A DNA stretch of 64,000 bases from Paracoccaceae bacterium (GTDB taxonomy: Bacteria > Pseudomonadota > Alphaproteobacteria > Rhodobacterales > Rhodobacteraceae): positions 1 through 64,000 of the forward strand of contig JAKVCP010000006.1 of the NCBI GenBank assembly GCA_022448925.1, given 5' to 3'. Within the stretch, counting starts at the first letter, position 1; every line of letters begins with the position of its first letter. The translations under genes were made by a program, and so were the position numbers. Positions 28,852 to 51,219 of this stretch are shown piece after piece. The notes beneath the pieces are model-generated. The model had not been told where the DNA came from. It searched no databases and worked only from the letters and a program-made list of their open reading frames with translations.

Positions 28852-29933
28852 CCATCTCCAACGCTGTCAAAACCCGCGCCGCCGAGTTGAGCAGGTTCTT
28901 TGAGGACGCAGGTGCCTTGCCTGTTCAATGTGATATTCTTCAGCCCGCCGAAACGCTGCTGGAGCTCTATGGCGAAGACATTCGCACCCGGGCTTACGTC
29001 ACATTTGATCCGGCGCGTGGCGAACAGATGTTGCGTCCCGATTTTACCGTCCCCGTTGTGCAGATGCACATGGAAAGTGGTGCAGAACCGGCCCGATATA
29101 CCTATGCCGGCGAGGTGTTTCGCCGACAGGAAGACCACCCCGAGCGCCCCTCGGAGTATCTGCAGGTCGGCTATGAGGTTTTTGACCGGTCAGCACCTGC
29201 CGAGGCGGACGCCGAGGTTTTTGCGCTGTTCAATGCTGTGCTTGGGCCGTTGGGCCTGAGGGCTGCAACCGGGGATATCGGCATTCTGACGGCCGTTGTA
29301 TCCGGGCTGAAGACGACACAGGCGCGCCGCGCTGCCTTGATGCGGCACATTTGGCGACCACGACGCTTTCGCGCACTTCTGGATCGATTTTCAGGTCGGA
29401 CCCCGCTGCCGGAAACGCGTGCTGCCCTTTTGGCGTCTGACGCACCGCAGGATATTGGCAGCCCCTCAATCGGCCTGCGCTCTGACGCCGAAATCGCGCG
29501 CCGCATACAGGCATTGCGCCACGACGCTGCAGAGCCCCCGATATCGACCGAAGAAATTGATTTGCTGGACGCGGTCATGGCGGTGCGGGAAACCTGCCCG
29601 TTTGCGCTGGAAAACCTGCGGGATCTGGCGGTGGACCTACCGGCGATGCGTCCTGCGGTCGATCGGTTCGCAGACCGGTGTGCGGCCTTGCAAAAGCGCG
29701 GGGTTGATGTTGCAGCCCTTGAGTTCGAAACCACCTATGGTCGAACTTCGATGGAATATTACGATGGATTTGTGTTTGGGTTTTACGCAGGCCACCGCCC
29801 GGATCTGCCGCCGATCGCATCCGGAGGACGCTATGATGCGCTGACCCGGGTTTTGGGCCGGGGGACAGAAATTCCCGCTGTCGGAGGCGTGATCCGGCCT
29901 CATCTCGTGGTCGAGTTGGAGGGCGCGCAATGA
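28848..29933 (+). CDS. hisZ: ATP phosphoribosyltransferase regulatory subunit
   Basis: HisRS-like paralogue without aminoacylation activity that assembles with short-form HisG to catalyse and feedback-regulate the first step of histidine synthesis. HisRS-like motifs are degenerate but visible ([59 protein letters not shown]). 361 aa. It lies between hisS and hisG with 4-nt overlaps at both ends, which ensures stoichiometric synthesis. Confidence 0.95.
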
Positions 29934-30628
29934 GTCTCAAGCTTGGTGTGCCGTCCAAGGGACGGCTGATGGAAAAAACGTTTGATTGGTTCGGAGCACG
30001 CGGTGTTCGTTTGTCGCGAACCGGCTCTGATCGTGAATATGCAGGGGCAGTTGACGGGGTTGAGGGCGTCAGTCTCGTTCTGCTGTCAGCCGGAGAGATC
30101 CCGCGCGAGTTGGCCGCAGGCCACATTCACCTGGGCGTCACGGGCACCGATTTGGTGCGTGAAAAGCTGGTGCAATGGGATCAAAAGGTGAAACCGCTGG
30201 CAGAGCTGGGCTTTGGCCATGCCGATCTGATCCTTGCGGTGCCAGCCTGCTGGGTTGATGTGGATACGCTGGATGATCTGGACGCCGCGGCAGCGGCCTT
30301 TCGGGCACAGCATGGATTTCGGATGCGTATCGCCACGAAATATCACCGGCTGATCCGGGATCATCTGCGCCAGGGCGGCGTGGCGGACTATCAGTTGGTC
30401 GACAGTCAGGGCGCGACCGAAGGCACAGTCAAGAACCTGACGGCCGAGGCGATTGCCGACATCACCTCAACCGGCGAGACACTGCGCGCCAACCACCTGA
30501 AGATCCTTCAGGATGAACCGGTGTTGCAGTCACAGGCAACCCTGTTCAAAAGCCGGGTGGCGCAGAAATCCGATGCCGAGATGCAGGCGCTGACCGATCT
30601 GACCCGCAAGCTTGGGCTGGACGGCTAG
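29930..30628 (+). CDS. hisG: ATP phosphoribosyltransferase, short form (catalytic)
   Basis: First enzyme of histidine synthesis, joining ATP and PRPP. It begins LKLGVPSKGRLMEKT and has the family motifs GVTGTDLVRE, RIATKYHRLIRDHL and the PRPP-binding DSQGATEGTVKNLTAEAIAD, written here in part. At 232 aa it lacks the C-terminal allosteric domain of long HisG, so HisZ is required. The start overlaps hisZ by 4 nt. The stop is convergent with the ClpP-like gene; both TAG stops share CTAG at 30625-30628. Confidence 0.96.
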   Translation: MSLKLGVPSKGRLMEKTFDWFGARGVRLSRTGSDREYAGAVDGVEGVSLVLLSAGEIPRELAAGHIHLGVTGTDLVREKLVQWDQKVKPLAELGFGHADLILAVPACWVDVDTLDDLDAAAAAFRAQHGFRMRIATKYHRLIRDHLRQGGVADYQLVDSQGATEGTVKNLTAEAIADITSTGETLRANHLKILQDEPVLQSQATLFKSRVAQKSDAEMQALTDLTRKLGLDG

Positions 30629-32055
30629 CCAGCTAATTCTTCGAAGCAGAAGGTGTTGCCAGATCCTTGGTTCAACCAACATGATCCGTTTGGCACCTGG
30701 CGGTACTCGGCGTCATATTCGCGGAAGGCGTCTGACCCGTTGACATAGGCCCAGACGCTGGCGTGTTTGTAGTCTTCGACAACCACGGTTTTGGATCCGG
30801 ATGGCCAGGTGAAGGTACGAACTTCGCTTCGAACCACGTCTTCCGAGGTGGTGGTCAGCAAGGCCATCTCGCAGGGTTCCAGATCCTTCTGCACCTGATC
30901 GCGCCAAACCGAGCAGATGCCCTTGGCCTGGCGTTCTTCATCCGGTGCGGTCAGGTCCAGAACCGAACGCACCTCGATCACGTCGTCCCGACTGCGGGCA
31001 AGGTCCCGCAGGGCCAACCGATTGTCAAAGAACATGGACGAGGTGATGATCTGCTCGGCTACATCCCATGTGATCGAGGCGATGCTGTCGCGTCTTGGAT
31101 TGGTGACGGTCAATGCGTCAAAGGCACCGCGCGTGTCCTCAAGCAGATCGATTGAACAACTGTGCCAATTGCCCTCGTCGCCAAAACCCGAAAGGGTCAG
31201 TCGCTCTCTGCCGTCATCAGGATTTTTCTCCCTTTGCGGGCTGATGCCGAGCCGGTCCGTCGCTACGGTGCCGAACACTGTCTGAAAATCCGGGTCGACG
31301 CCCTGCAAATAGGCAAAGTTCTTGGTGCAGGCATTGGCGGCCGCCAGGGCCGAAATCTTGTCGGGAAAGACCGTCCCGACTACGGGAATGTTCAGTCGGC
31401 CCGCATCAATGGTGGTTTCGACAAAGGTCATTTGCTCGGGCGGTGTGGTCAGTATCGTGGTCAGTAGGCTGTCGGGCAGCCACCAGGCGTTCTTTCGCTG
31501 GCTGAGCGCACCCAGACCGGCAATGGCGATGTTATAGGCCAGCTCAATCTGGGCTTTGGTGAACTGGCCATCGGCGACCACCAAAGAAGGCGCATGAAAC
31601 CCAAGGCGCGCCGTGGCGTGCATGGCGCGGTTGGGTCCCAGCAAACCGTCACCGGTGATCATGGACGTCCCTGACAGAAACAGGACCGCTCAGGCAGACT
31701 GACAGTCCGCATCCCGGGCAACCGCGGTGCCTATGGCGTAGGCATGCAGGATATCGCCCATACGAATGGCCTCGCTCAAACTGCCGCCGGGGCTATTTAG
31801 GCAAAGCCTGAAGCCATCGAATTGAACCGAGGCAGGAGCATCCCACGTGTAGCCGTAAAGCTCTGTCAGTGCGGCGGCGACGTCCAGCCGCAAATCGGGC
31901 AACATGGCCTCTAGCTTGTCAGCATCCCCTTTGACGATTGGCCCGCTAAGGGTGGCAATACAGCCCATGAAGTCATCGCGCTTGCGTTCAATCTCGGCTG
32001 CGTGCGCCGGTTCGATCAGAAGCACAAGCGCGAGTAAGGCCAGAAAACGTTTCAT
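30625..32055 (-). pseudogene. ClpP-like periplasmic serine-protease homologue interrupted by one in-frame TGA at a conserved Cys (nonsense allele or recoded)
   Basis: The full frame from the ATG at 32055 is 476 codons with a single interior stop, TGA at 31692-31690. Residues 1-19 are a signal peptide (ending EPAHA). The ClpP/SppA-like part has LCLNSPGGSLSEAIRMGD, then DCQSA-TGA-AVLFLSGTS, then ARLGFHAPSL and ELAYNIAIAG. Homologues I know carry C-x-S-A-C-A-x-x-F at this point, so TGA stands for the second cysteine, two residues after the putative nucleophile serine. A TTTCTGT loop closed by GTCCTG/CAGGGAC (one bulge; 31686-31667) follows 3 nt after the TGA. Read as two genes, the halves are a 121-aa and a 345-aa product, the second without signal peptide or obvious ribosome site. 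It converges on hisG. Confidence 0.8.
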
Positions 32056-32111
32056 GGTCCCCCCTTAATTTAGTCTGAGGGTTATGCAGACCATGAAAAG
32101 CAAAGAAGGTC

Positions 32112-32149: not shown

Positions 32150-33016
32150 CTATTCTGCCGCTTCGAGCTTGTCTTGGGTCTTTGTGTCAAAATCGCTTGC
32201 GTCGTGACGTTCGTGCAACTGCATCTCCAGGTCGCCAAAGGCGCGGTTCACCATGCGGCCGCGCTGGACGGCGGGGCGGGCGTCGATCAGTTTGGCCCAG
32301 CGGACCACATGTGTGTAGCTTTCGACATCAAGGAACTCGGCAGCGCTGTAGAGCCGGCCCAGGACAAGCTGGCCGTACCAGCTCCAGATAGCGATATCGG
32401 CGATGGTGTAGTCATCGCCCACCATGAACGTCTTGTCGGCCAGATGCCGATCCAGCACATCGAGCTGCCGCTTGGTTTCCATCGCGAAGCGGTCGATCGG
32501 GTACTGCCATTTTTCGGGTGCATAGGCGTAGAAGTGGCCAAAGCCGCCGCCCAGATAGGGCGCGCTGCCCATCTGCCAGAAGAGCCAGCTGAGCATTTCG
32601 GGGCGTTTGTCTTTCGGGCCCAGGAATTTGCCAAACGTCTCGGCCAGGTGCAGAAGGATAGATCCGGATTCAAACAGGCGGATCGGTGTTTCGCCAGAGT
32701 GGTCCATAAGCGCTGGAATCTTGGAGTTTGGATTGACATCCACAAAGCCGCTTCCAAACTGATCTCCCTCGCCAATGTTGATCAGCCAGGCGTCGTACTC
32801 GGCGCCACGTTCACCCGCGGCCAGCAACTCTTCGAGCATCACAGTGACCTTCACGCCATTCGGGGTCGCGAGTGAATAGAGCTGAAACGGATGTTTGCCA
32901 ACGCGCAGCTCTTTGTCGTGTGTCGCCCCGGCGATTGGACGATTTGTGCTGGCAAATTTGCCACCGTTTTCGCGATCCCACGTCCAGACTGCGGGAGGAG
33001 TATAAGTATCGGTCAT
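32150..33016 (-). CDS. yghU: Glutathione-dependent disulfide-bond oxidoreductase (YghU-type GST)
   Basis: Glutathione S-transferase-fold protein that reduces disulfides with glutathione and has organic-hydroperoxide activity in the E. coli relative. It opens with TYTPPAVWTWDRENGGKFAS and NRPIAGATHDKELRVGKHPF, the N-terminal extension typical of YghU. The thioredoxin-like domain has LYSLATPNGVKVTVMLEELL and NPNSKIPALMD. The all-helical C-terminal half has MLSWLFWQMGSAPYLGGGFG. From the ATG at 33016 the product is 288 aa, the family length. The longer frame to 33163 has no support. Confidence 0.94.
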   Translation of the reverse strand: MTDTYTPPAVWTWDRENGGKFASTNRPIAGATHDKELRVGKHPFQLYSLATPNGVKVTVMLEELLAAGERGAEYDAWLINIGEGDQFGSGFVDVNPNSKIPALMDHSGETPIRLFESGSILLHLAETFGKFLGPKDKRPEMLSWLFWQMGSAPYLGGGFGHFYAYAPEKWQYPIDRFAMETKRQLDVLDRHLADKTFMVGDDYTIADIAIWSWYGQLVLGRLYSAAEFLDVESYTHVVRWAKLIDARPAVQRGRMVNRAFGDLEMQLHERHDASDFDTKTQDKLEAAE

Positions 33017-33344
33017 TTTGCAAGGTCCCATATTCCGTTCCTGCCTACCTATGCGTTCGCCGGCAAATTGCGAGCATTTCAGATAGATTTCCTCATCCAG
33101 CGATACAGGCTGCGGCCGTCCAAACCTATCCAGACGGATAGGTGGGCTATTCTCAAGCTTCATTGCGACCTGGCTTTGCGGTCAGTTACGGTAAACTCCT
33201 TCGGTCATGCGAAGTGTGTGCATCAATAGTATGGTGAAGAGTGAAAGAGCAGGACCGCAGACAACGGCGGTAATGAGTATGTCCACTAGGACAGAGTTTT
33301 GAGGGGGAGCGCTGCTCCCCCTTTTTTTTCGAAGCGCGGCGGTT
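33017..33344. other. Intergenic region with a plus-strand terminator and two tiny frames
   Basis: A plus-strand 23-codon frame (ATG 33231, stop 33300-33302, ending MSMSTRTEF) ends at the base of the strong terminator at 33303. On the minus strand, GTG 33286 to 33182 would encode a 34-residue hydrophobic peptide (ILITAVVCG...LSLFTILLM) ending MTEGVYRN. Neither has a good ribosome site. The terminator orientation favours a plus-strand small RNA or small ORF. Confidence 0.4.
33303..33329 (+). terminator. Strong Rho-independent terminator, plus strand
   Basis: GGGGGAGC (33303-33310) pairs perfectly with GCTCCCCC (33314-33321) around GCT and is followed by eight T. No annotated plus-strand gene lies within 2.6 kb upstream, so it implies an unannotated plus-strand transcript. 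On the minus strand there is no T tract. Confidence 0.88.
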
Positions 33345-33776: not shown

Positions 33777-34171
33777 GGATTTTCCTCGTCTACCAACATG
33801 TATGGTAGAGGAATTGCAGGGTCCTTCAAGGTGTTCAAACACGGTGTTCCAACCATCTGTGGTCACCGGCTCGTCTGACGATGAAGGTGTCTTCTGCAGG
33901 CTGGGTTCTTGGTCGGCCCCGTGCAGATCACGAAAGCAGATACAGACGCGGGTGCGGGCGCCAATGTGCAATGTTGCCGGTGCGGCGCTGCCTGTCGCGG
34001 CAACCGGCCGGTCCGGACAGGCCCCGAATGTCAAAGCGGATTGGGTGCTCGGGTGGCGCTTTGCACACAGTGTCGTTGCCGGGTCTTTTCAGGCGCGGCA
34101 TCCAATCCCTTGAGAGAGATCAACATCGGCGATACCTTGGTCACCCGCAGTTCTTATTGAGAATCATCGCC
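33777..34171. other. 395-bp divergent region (DUF1489 / nrdJ)
   Basis: It holds the DUF1489 promoter candidate and an inverted repeat (33789-33795 / 33803-33809). A plus-strand frame (GTG 33921 to 34160) with Cys-x-x-Cys pairs ends 11 nt before nrdJ; it may be a small gene but has no good ribosome site. No cobalamin riboswitch box was recognised upstream of nrdJ. Confidence 0.45.
33802..33829 (-). promoter_or_regulatory. Candidate sigma-70-type promoter of the DUF1489 gene
   Basis: Reading the minus strand, TTGAAG (33829-33824), a 16-nt spacer and TACCAT (33807-33802) lie 26 nt upstream of the GTG. Each box matches 4 of 6 consensus bases. An inverted repeat TCTACCA / TGGTAGA (33789-33809) overlaps the -10 box and could be an operator. 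Confidence 0.35.
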
Positions 34172-36460
34172 ATGACCCGCTTTGCCGCCCCCATCGCCGA
34201 ACAGATCTGGGACATGAAGTACCGTCTTAAAAAGACCGACGGCACGCCCATCGACAGGACCGTCGAAGAGACATGGCGTCGCATCGCCCGGGCACTTGCG
34301 GCTGAAGAGGCGGAGCCAGACGTCTGGGAAGATGTCTTTTTCGGCGCGCTTGAGGATTTCAAGTATCTGCCCGCGGGTCGCATCACAGCAGGATCAGGCA
34401 CAGGGCGGTCCGTCACGCTGTTCAATTGTTTCGTCATGGGGACAATTCCTGACAGTATGGGCGGCATTTTCGAGATGTTGAAAGAGGCCGCGCTGACGAT
34501 GCAGCAGGGCGGCGGGATCGGATATGATTTCTCGACCATTCGGCCCACCGGTGCAGACGTCAAGGGTGTGGCAGCCGATGCATCTGGCCCATTGTCGTTT
34601 ATGGATGTTTGGGATGCCATGTGCCGGACAATCATGTCTGCGGGGTCCCGTCGGGGGGCGATGATGGCGACGATGCGGTGCGATCATCCCGATATTGAAG
34701 ATTTCATCGCGGCGAAAGCCGACAGTGCCCGGTTGCGCATGTTCAACCTGTCGGTGCTGGTTACAGATGCGTTCATGTCCGCGGTCAAGGCTGACGCCAG
34801 TTGGGACCTTGCCTTCGAAGGCAGGGTTTATCGCACGGTGCAGGCGCGAGATTTGTGGAACAAGATCATGCGTGCGACATACGACTACGCTGAGCCCGGC
34901 GTGATTTTTATCGATCGCATCAATCAGGCCAACAACCTCAACTATGTAGAGACGATAGCAGCCACCAATCCCTGTGGAGAACAGCCTTTGCCGCCTTACG
35001 GCGCCTGTCTGCTAGGATCGGTCAACCTCGCGCGGCTTGTGCGGGATCCCTTCGAAGACGGCAAGGCCCATGTCTGTGAGGCCGCCCTTGATGATTTGGT
35101 CGCCGTGGCTGTGCGCATGATGGACAACGTTGTTGATGCCAGCCGTTTCCCGCTTGAGGCGCAGCGCCAGGAAGCGCAGGCCAAGCGGCGGATCGGGCTG
35201 GGCGTAACCGGGCTGGCAGACGCCTTGCTGATGGTGGGGTTGCGCTACGGAACTCAGGAAGCCGCCGATCAGACCGAGGTCTGGCTAAAACGGATTGCGC
35301 GCGCCGCCTATCTTGCGTCGGTTGAGCTTGCCAAGGAAAAAGGCGCCTTCCCGTTGTTTGACGCCGAAAAGTTTCTTGCCTCGGGGACGATGCAGTTGAT
35401 GGATAACGAGGTGCGCAGCGCGATTCGCGAACATGGCATCCGCAATGCGCTGCTGACGTCGATCGCACCGACGGGGACAATTTCGCTTTATGCTGGCAAT
35501 GTCAGTTCGGGAATAGAGCCGGTCTTTGCCTTTGCTTACACGCGCAAGGTGTTGCAAAAGGACGGCAGCCGAACCGAGGAAGAGGTGGTGGATTACGCGG
35601 TTCAGATGTGGCGTGACCTGAAGGGGGATGCCCCCCTTCCAGATCATTTTGTGGATGCACAGACATTGGCGCCTCTTGACCATGTGCGCATGCAGGCGGC
35701 TGCGCAAAAATGGGTCGATTCCTCGATTTCGAAAACGATCAACTGCCCTGAGGATATCTCGTTTGAGGACTTCAAGGACGTCTACATGGAGGCCTGGGAT
35801 ACGGGCTGCAAGGGATGTACGACCTATCGGCCAAACGACGTGACGGGCAGTGTTCTAAGCGTCTCGGAAAATGAAACCAGCGATGTCGCGGCCGATGCAG
35901 ATGGGGCCGAACCCATGCGTCCGCATGGTGATGTGATCTATATGTCCGAGCCACTGGACCGCCCGCAAGCCCTTGAGGGCAGTACCTACAAGCTGAAGTG
36001 GCCAGACAGCGAACATGCGATCTATCTGACGATCAATGATATTGTCGTTGGGCAGCAACGTCGCCCCTTTGAGGTGTTCATCAATTCCAAGAACATGGAG
36101 CATTACGCCTGGACGCTGGCACTGACCCGAATGATTTCGGCGGTCTTCCGACGAGGCGGGGATGTCAGCTTTGTGGTGGAAGAGCTGAAGGCTGTCTTTG
36201 ATCCGCGCGGTGGGGCCTGGGTGCAGGGAAAGTATATCCCCTCTATCCTGGCTGCGATCGGAGGCGTGATCGAGCAGCATATGGTGGCCATCGGCTTCCT
36301 TGAAAGCGAAGGGATGGGGCTGAAGTCGGATCCCAAGGCTGCGATCGTCAATCTGGATGCGCCTCGCGGCAAGGCCTGCCCGTCCTGTGGCCAATATGAC
36401 ATGCGGATGGTCGAGGGCTGTATGACCTGTGCCAGTTGTGGTTATTCCAAGTGTGGCTGA
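34172..36460 (+). CDS. nrdJ: Adenosylcobalamin-dependent (class II) ribonucleotide reductase
   Basis: Oxygen-independent enzyme making deoxyribonucleotides by B12 radical chemistry. The N-terminal part has LPAGRITAGSGTGRSVTLFN and MQQGGGIGYDFSTIRPTGAD. The active-site block NPCGEQPLPPYGACLLGSVN carries the catalytic Cys and Glu. SIAPTGTISLYAGNVSSGIE and the C-terminal four-cysteine motifs (CPSCG, CMTCASCGYSKCG), used as redox or zinc site, are present. 762 aa is typical for this order. The ATG at 34172 matches the family start (MTRFAAPIAEQIW). The ribosome site is weak. It is a single gene with a hairpin terminator at 36550. Confidence 0.96.
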   Translation: MTRFAAPIAEQIWDMKYRLKKTDGTPIDRTVEETWRRIARALAAEEAEPDVWEDVFFGALEDFKYLPAGRITAGSGTGRSVTLFNCFVMGTIPDSMGGIFEMLKEAALTMQQGGGIGYDFSTIRPTGADVKGVAADASGPLSFMDVWDAMCRTIMSAGSRRGAMMATMRCDHPDIEDFIAAKADSARLRMFNLSVLVTDAFMSAVKADASWDLAFEGRVYRTVQARDLWNKIMRATYDYAEPGVIFIDRINQANNLNYVETIAATNPCGEQPLPPYGACLLGSVNLARLVRDPFEDGKAHVCEAALDDLVAVAVRMMDNVVDASRFPLEAQRQEAQAKRRIGLGVTGLADALLMVGLRYGTQEAADQTEVWLKRIARAAYLASVELAKEKGAFPLFDAEKFLASGTMQLMDNEVRSAIREHGIRNALLTSIAPTGTISLYAGNVSSGIEPVFAFAYTRKVLQKDGSRTEEEVVDYAVQMWRDLKGDAPLPDHFVDAQTLAPLDHVRMQAAAQKWVDSSISKTINCPEDISFEDFKDVYMEAWDTGCKGCTTYRPNDVTGSVLSVSENETSDVAADADGAEPMRPHGDVIYMSEPLDRPQALEGSTYKLKWPDSEHAIYLTINDIVVGQQRRPFEVFINSKNMEHYAWTLALTRMISAVFRRGGDVSFVVEELKAVFDPRGGAWVQGKYIPSILAAIGGVIEQHMVAIGFLESEGMGLKSDPKAAIVNLDAPRGKACPSCGQYDMRMVEGCMTCASCGYSKCG

Positions 36461-49919: not shown

Positions 49920-50836
49920 TTATCCCATCAAAAGCTGATAGCTATGCGGGACATAGTGAAAGCCTTCACCACGTGTTTCCACATACCCTACGCCCGGGAA
50001 GGGCATGTGATACCCGACAAAGGGCACGCCATCAGCGGCCAGCATGCCCAGGACCTTGCGCCGCGCCGCTGCAGCACCTGCCTTGTCCATATCGAAGCGC
50101 ACCTCCCAATCGGGATGTGCCAGGGACCAGACGTAGTGGTTGGCGAGATCCCCCACCAACATCAGCTGTTGTCCGTCACTTTCCAGCATATAGCCCATGT
50201 GCCCCGGCGTGTGCCCAAAGGCGGCCATGCCCGTCACGCCGGATGTCACGGCGTCTTGATCTCCGATAAAGCGCATTTTCTCGGCCAGTGGGCGCACATT
50301 GCTCTCAAACCGTTCGTCGTCGCGGGCGGCCCAGGCATCAAACTCAACCTGGCCAGTGATATAGGCCGCGTTTGCAAAGGTTGGCGCGCCATCTGTCATA
50401 AGTCCGCCAATGTGGTCGCCGTGCATATGTGTGATCACCACATGGGTCACTTGATCGGCGCTGTACCCGCCGCCACGATGCCAGCCCCATTCAGCCCCGT
50501 GTCAAACAGGATCAGTTCGGACCCTGTATTCACCAAGGTTGGCGTAAAGAAAAACTGTGCTTTGTCTGCCGGGATATGTGCGGCGGCCGAGGCTGCGGCG
50601 AATTCGTCGGGAGAGACGTTCATCCCAAAGATCCCCTGTGCGCCCTCGACTGTGCGTGTGCCGACCAACAGCGTCGTGACCTCGAAGGCCCCGACTTTCA
50701 TCCGGTTTGCGCGCGGCACCTGGGTGCCCTGCATCGGAGCCATGGCCTGGGCTGAACCAGCCAGACTTGCAGCCATTGGCAGGACCGCTGCCCCAAACAA
50801 TGCCGTACGGCGGGTCACATTGGTTGAATTGGTCAT
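49920..50836 (-). pseudogene. Tat-exported metallo-beta-lactamase-fold hydrolase, frameshifted
   Basis: From ATG 50836 (GGGAGGG 6 nt upstream) the N-terminal half has a twin-arginine signal (NVTRRTALFGAAVLPMAASL) and the MBL start LFDTGLNGAGIVAAG, then terminates at 50447. The second half continues in another frame with VVITHMHGDHIGGL (H-x-H-x-D-H), FGHTPGHMGYML and LVGDLANH to 49920. Around 50464 the minus strand reads GGTACAGC; one extra T (GGTTACAGC) would join the frames as A-A-G-Y-S-A-D-Q-V-T-H-V-V, as in relatives. A single-base deletion, or a sequencing error, therefore separates the halves. Intact product would be about 305 aa. Confidence 0.87.
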
Positions 50837-51219
50837 CAAATTCCCTCCCTTTCTTTGGCCCGACCTAGAGTGGTCGCGGAGGCCGGCCTCATTTTTCACG
50901 GGTTTGTGATGTTTTGAATGCAACCAATGGAATATTATAACGCGACCGCGTTGCTTGGGTGGTCATTGGTCCAAAGGAAAGTCGCAAATATGTTGGCGTG
51001 AACGCGGCATTCAACGGTGCGTCTGGGCTTGGTCATTGCTGGCCTCATGCGCCACCGATACCAAAAAGACCGGCGCGCCCGACGACCCAAGAAACGAGGC
51101 ATCGCCAACGATATGCCAGCGCAACACGTGCAGAGCGACATCGTCACACCGTCCCAGCACCCGACGATCAATCCAGTCTGGCACTTTGCCTTCGCAGCCT
51201 GCGGCGCTACGGTTTCGGC
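50837..51219. other. 383-bp divergent region (MBL / MFS)
   Basis: It presumably holds both promoters. Open frames on both strands (for example 51017-51223 plus) show no domain. The MFS start has no clear ribosome site, so its upstream boundary is uncertain. Confidence 0.4.

Follow-up and report, generated by a model that had tools for sequence, protein, structure and literature searches.

In bacterial selenoproteins with selenocysteine (Sec)/Cys homologues, such as FdhA, an in-frame TGA is aligned with a conserved cysteine and the frame downstream of it is intact. According to the available part of PMC1273633, Sec decoding is marked by selB and selC and selenouridine synthesis by ybbB (mnmH), with selD taking part in both. 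The Sec-decoding Alphaproteobacteria of the set described in the available part of PMC1794560 all have similar selA-selB-selC operons, with fdhA as a neighbour. For the accompanying hairpin, the bSECIS model, as given in the available part of a 2026 review (PMC13188914), has a spacing of 16–37 nt and an MFE of -7.5 kcal/mol or lower. The marks of a young, single-lesion bacterial pseudogene include one nonsense codon in an otherwise constrained gene, an intact syntenic orthologue in a genus-mate, and paralogues.

The locus studied here lies in a stretch of 64,000 nt (the window) and consists of a gene for a predicted periplasmic ClpP-like protein interrupted by one TGA. It shares the listed features of a young pseudogene and differs from one in nothing except the striking position of its stop. 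With the selenoproteins it shares the alignment of the TGA with a conserved Cys and the intact downstream frame, but its genome and four relatives yielded no Sec machinery, no homologue with the TGA turned up and the SECIS test did not discriminate. We consider the TGA to be probably a nonsense mutation that arose recently in one of a set of paralogues. This and the other likelihoods expressed below are judgements and were not computed.

The interrupted gene and its neighbourhood

The features of the locus are listed in Table 1. The initial annotation had described a minus-strand frame of 476 codons broken by a TGA at 31692-31690, and re-reading the frame gave the same coordinates. It begins with an ATG at 32055, ends with a TAG at 30627-30625 and has this single interruption, around which it reads D-C-Q-S-A-TGA-A-V-L-F, with 354 more codons open. 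Its N-terminus is signal-peptide-like, as judged by eye. The gene is flanked by a putative hisS-hisZ-hisG-like cluster and a putative GST-like gene.

Table 1 Features of the interrupted locus, in window coordinates.
Feature	Position	Strand	Description
ClpP-like family gene, interrupted, predicted periplasmic	30625..32055	-	476 codons including the TGA; syntenic orthologue without stop in G001
In-frame TGA	31690..31692	-	Codon 122, at the second Cys of C-x-S-A-C
Truncated ORF	31690..32055	-	121 aa, ending just past the putative nucleophile S120
Downstream remnant ORF	30625..31662	-	345 codons from an ATG, the 10th codon past the TGA
hisG-like gene	29930..30628	+	Convergent with the target; 4 bp overlap with the target stop
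GST-like gene, upstream of the target	32150..33163	-	90% identity to the G001 gene at the same position
Hairpin of the initial annotation	31667..31686	-	5 bp, 7-nt loop, -4.9 kcal/mol folded alone

The gene order around the target is common to the window and a genus-mate (G001, JAUHVR010000013.1), whose orthologue is 67% identical over its full length and has no internal stop, with a TGT at codon 122. G001 has one additional family member, located between hisG and the orthologue (L022 6566-7969, plus strand) and absent from the window. In the comparison with G001, dN/dS is 0.136 upstream of the TGA and 0.149 downstream, against 0.048 to 0.083 for four neighbouring genes, all of which are rough values because dS is close to saturation. 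Judging from the identity to the syntenic orthologue and the low dN/dS on both sides of the TGA, the 32055-30625 frame is a real gene.

Relation to ClpP

Neither the target nor its G001 orthologue has a Pfam match over the cut-off. The matches of the target are sub-threshold: a single one in Pfam, DUF7552 (E 0.11), and NF045542 in NCBIfam (E 0.024, 14.6 bits against a cut-off of 120), along with a weak match to a ClpP2 chain (E 0.44). The structure predicted for the G001 orthologue has a mean pLDDT of 51.8, and a Foldseek search with this low-confidence model gave a partial match to ClpP (E 5.6e-4). The 50 listed of its 1125 matches are all ClpP-type, with seven at E 0.001 or better, TMt of at most 0.50 and rmsd above 11. 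The designation as ClpP-like in the initial annotation thus agrees, weakly, with sub-threshold ClpP-type matches and a partial fold match, while no profile was matched over its cut-off. The likeness to CLP_protease (PF00574) lies in these weak sequence matches and in the fold match of the G001 orthologue; compared to ClpP (about 200 residues), the target has in addition an N-terminal signal peptide (by eye) as well as an extended C-terminal region, and falls below the family cut-offs. COG3904 is the name which we presume to apply to its family. In the low-pLDDT model of the G001 orthologue, a strand at 117-119 leads into a helix at residue 120, an arrangement like that of a nucleophile elbow, and from this ClpP-like position Ser120 is plausibly the nucleophile.

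Loss of function from the TGA would be expected, because the 121-residue product lacks the rest of the catalytic domain, and the downstream ORF (from 31662) lacks both the N-terminus and the putative nucleophile serine.

Conservation of the cysteine codon

The second Cys is kept in all 17 other family members read at this column in matches without an internal stop. They come from five genomes (G000, the window's own assembly, together with G001, G003, G123 and G407) and comprise 15 distinct genes and two more. In arriving at 15, repeat entries of the same G001, G123, G407 and G000 genes were counted once and two rows that were off the column were left out; nine distant plasmid matches, from the nine records of a plasmid collection that hold distant relatives of the target, are likewise outside the count. 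The codon is TGT or TGC throughout. In an alignment of ten sequences, the nine others agree without gaps at 49 columns, and the window differs from them at only one of these, the TGA; at the 34 such columns that follow the TGA it does not depart once. That the TGA falls on a conserved Cys of the C-x-S-A-C motif, as proposed in the initial annotation, is therefore borne out. When columns common to at least eight of the nine others are considered, the window has 8 departures in 88, two of which are the TGA and a proline at 339, compared with 3/84 for the G001 orthologue, 6/84 for the G123 orthologue and 2 to 24 departures for the other seven.

None of the 17 relatives from the five genomes carries a TGA at this position. 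The 394 family genomes gave nine matches at E 1e-60 or better, among which the sole internal stop is the window's own.

The target is one of 12 family matches in its own genome, two of which (C117:52788-53072 and C117:53376-54083) belong to one gene. A paralogue on another contig (L088, G000:C73:91000-93698) looks decayed, having an in-frame TAG with further stops around it and the second Cys replaced by Arg. It is close to the contig end and to a reading frame that by eye is transposase-like. This copy suggests that family members get lost in this genome.

Selenocysteine machinery

A TGA located precisely at a conserved Cys, with a constrained frame downstream, raises the possibility that UGA is recoded as selenocysteine, giving a ClpP-like protein with a C-x-S-A-Sec motif. 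The genes required were searched for with profiles in the window's own assembly (3.48 Mb, 149 contigs, 91.11% complete) and in four relatives that are 99-100% complete, namely the genus-mate G001, G123, G407 and G003. In the own assembly, the best selA score was 19.1 bits (cut-off 267.9), selB reached at most 73.2 bits (cut-off 242.25) and tRNA-Sec at most 41.7 bits (cut-off 47) among the 150 of 513 first-look candidates that were scored. ARAGORN identifies the eight tRNA-Sec matches listed for this assembly as ordinary tRNAs. None of the four relatives has selA or selB over the cut-off; the best selB scores, up to 194.6 bits, belong to frames of 336-406 codons that we took for EF-Tu. With 150 candidates scored per genome, tRNA-Sec exceeded the cut-off in one relative, G123 (47.6 against 47 bits), and ARAGORN, which was run on eight loci of the 43 tRNA-Sec matches in the relatives, reads this candidate as tRNA-Ser(TGA). 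Among 14 control genomes, selA was over the cut-off in one, selB in two and tRNA-Sec in five, and the searches are therefore able to succeed.

The one gene of this kind that was found in the own assembly is selD (302.3 bits, cut-off 125). It adjoins mnmH, of the 2-selenouridine pathway, the two being convergent on contig C128 (L090, G000:C128:28500-33500), and we rejected it as a sign of Sec decoding, considering that selD also serves selenouridine according to the available part of PMC1273633. The mnmH gene is also present in G001, G407 and G003, and was not found in G123. By this evidence, G000 would be a selenouridine-only genome. The selD frame has 718 codons for a selD model of 311 positions and is perhaps a fusion.

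The missing sel genes in G000 alone are no proof because of its incompleteness and its 149 contigs. The result for the genus-mate matters because a single sel operon could drop into an assembly gap. The selB profile in G000 gave no full-length EF-Tu-like match and only a short frame of 108 codons (L016, G000:C125:14575-14826), while G001 and G407 each have two EF-Tu-like matches of about 190 bits. A repeat lost in assembly perhaps accounts for this, and it is a reminder of the incompleteness.

Hairpins downstream of the TGA

The initial annotation had placed a hairpin of 6 bp with one bulge at 31686-31667 and remarked that it starts closer to the UGA than in known bacterial SECIS elements. A hairpin does fold there, although it is a weak one with 5 bp and a 7-nt loop; it is also misplaced, with its apical loop 9 nt past the UGA, where the model has 16-37 nt (PMC13188914, available part). 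As it also lacks a G in the first two loop positions, this hairpin falls outside the model. The fold of the 53-nt stretch from the UGA is no more stable than those of shuffled versions (z = +0.23; 116 of 200 shuffles equalled or exceeded it). A scan of 31400-32100 against Rfam gave two matches, both below the gathering score and both to animal families.

A second downstream hairpin, absent from the initial annotation, is within the bSECIS limits published in the available part of PMC13188914, at their edge: its spacing is 37 nt, its loop GUGA and its energy -11.3 kcal/mol. In our own version of the hairpin test, however, hairpins after 29 of 84 ordinary Cys codons, drawn from 20 window genes, pass as well. 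The same stretch fails in the G001 orthologue and passes in that of G123, which has a Cys codon. The SECIS hairpin test is non-discriminating here.

Sec recoding was rejected because selA, selB and selC were not found in the assembly or in four relatives, and the 394 family genomes (E 1e-60) gave no homologue carrying the TGA. Despite the position of the TGA, the presence of selD and the second hairpin, we regard it as very improbable. Equally slight is the chance that Sec, or another residue decoded from UGA, sits two residues from the nucleophile, the Sec genes being in an assembly gap or a strain-specific acquisition. If Sec recoding were true, a peptidase-fold family would join the selenoproteins. 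The locus rather calls for caution, since a TGA at a conserved Cys, an intact frame, selD and a SECIS-like hairpin together mimic a selenoprotein, yet selD lies here next to the selenouridine gene, and a third of ordinary Cys codons satisfy the hairpin test.

Use of UGA and suppressor tRNA

Among the 20 window genes examined, which include the target with its own TAG, nine end in UGA, and an altered genetic code was rejected on this basis. The constraint on the downstream part could also be explained by partial readthrough of the UGA by a suppressor or near-cognate tRNA, which would yield some full-length protein. The own assembly was searched with a pattern combining a UCA anticodon and a T-loop, giving 22 matches, against 8 for the reversed pattern. 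ARAGORN, confined to these pattern loci of the genome, finds a tRNA in three of the 22 (Glu twice, representing one gene, and Leu once), none with a UCA anticodon, and a suppressor tRNA was rejected at these loci. The pattern in its CCA anticodon version recovers the tRNA-Trp locus (L029); a tRNA with an unusual T-loop would escape it. Considering these results, the termination of nine genes by UGA and the fact that a recent loss accounts for the constraint equally well, readthrough is hardly to be expected.

Nonsense mutation or base error

Of the three readings put forward in the initial annotation, a nonsense mutation and a base error remain, and UGA recoding fails. According to the preferred reading, a recent nonsense mutation, UGA would be read as stop in this cell because there is apparently neither Sec-insertion machinery nor a UCA-anticodon tRNA, so that the single-base TGA would stop translation of the predicted periplasmic protein after 121 residues. 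The lesion is probably tolerated because of the other family members in this genome, and would still be isolated, the rest of the gene having yet to decay, because too little time has elapsed. The gene as found carries a disabling lesion, while its homologue in the genus-mate is intact. No literature on stop codons in metagenome genomes was found.

The main rival is a base error in the consensus or assembly, in which case the Cys codon would be intact in the living cell and the protein made in full. The TGA is one base from the TGT of the genus-mate, it is the only invariant column lost, and the assembly, in 149 contigs and 91% complete, is fragmentary, all of which would fit such an error. 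On the other hand, the only other confirmed lesion in the window involves the loss of several codons at a GC-rich stretch (by eye), and resembles a deletion or misassembly more than a miscall. The relative rates also hint at a real relaxation: taking G123 as outgroup, residues unique to the window number 38, against 19 unique to G001, over the 349 sites that follow the TGA (binomial p = 0.016); over the 115 sites that precede it they number 8 and 7, respectively. The before and after ratios do not differ significantly (Fisher p = 0.38), and the excess is at most a hint that the downstream part is perhaps under relaxed constraint. We consider a base error to be the less likely explanation, though one to be taken seriously, and infer that the nonsense mutation is genuine, and not an error of the consensus, and that it is tolerated by redundancy.

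Other lesions in the window

The initial annotation had mentioned two other single-lesion genes in the window. One was confirmed, with a frameshift near 50468-50477, and the second was not located, either in 27-64 kb, which was compared with syntenic G001 sequence where aligned, or in 1-27 kb, where eight ORFs were scanned, seven of them with Pfam domains. A large ORF at 34160-36457 (plus strand), by eye ribonucleotide-reductase-like, lacks a counterpart of about 68 residues (579-646) that the G001 protein has, and its frame stays open. The frameshifted gene lies at 49923-50923 on the minus strand and is intact in G001. It is short of several residues at its GC-rich stretch, apparently through a deletion or misassembly. 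It carries an HxHxDH motif that, by eye, is MBL-fold-like.
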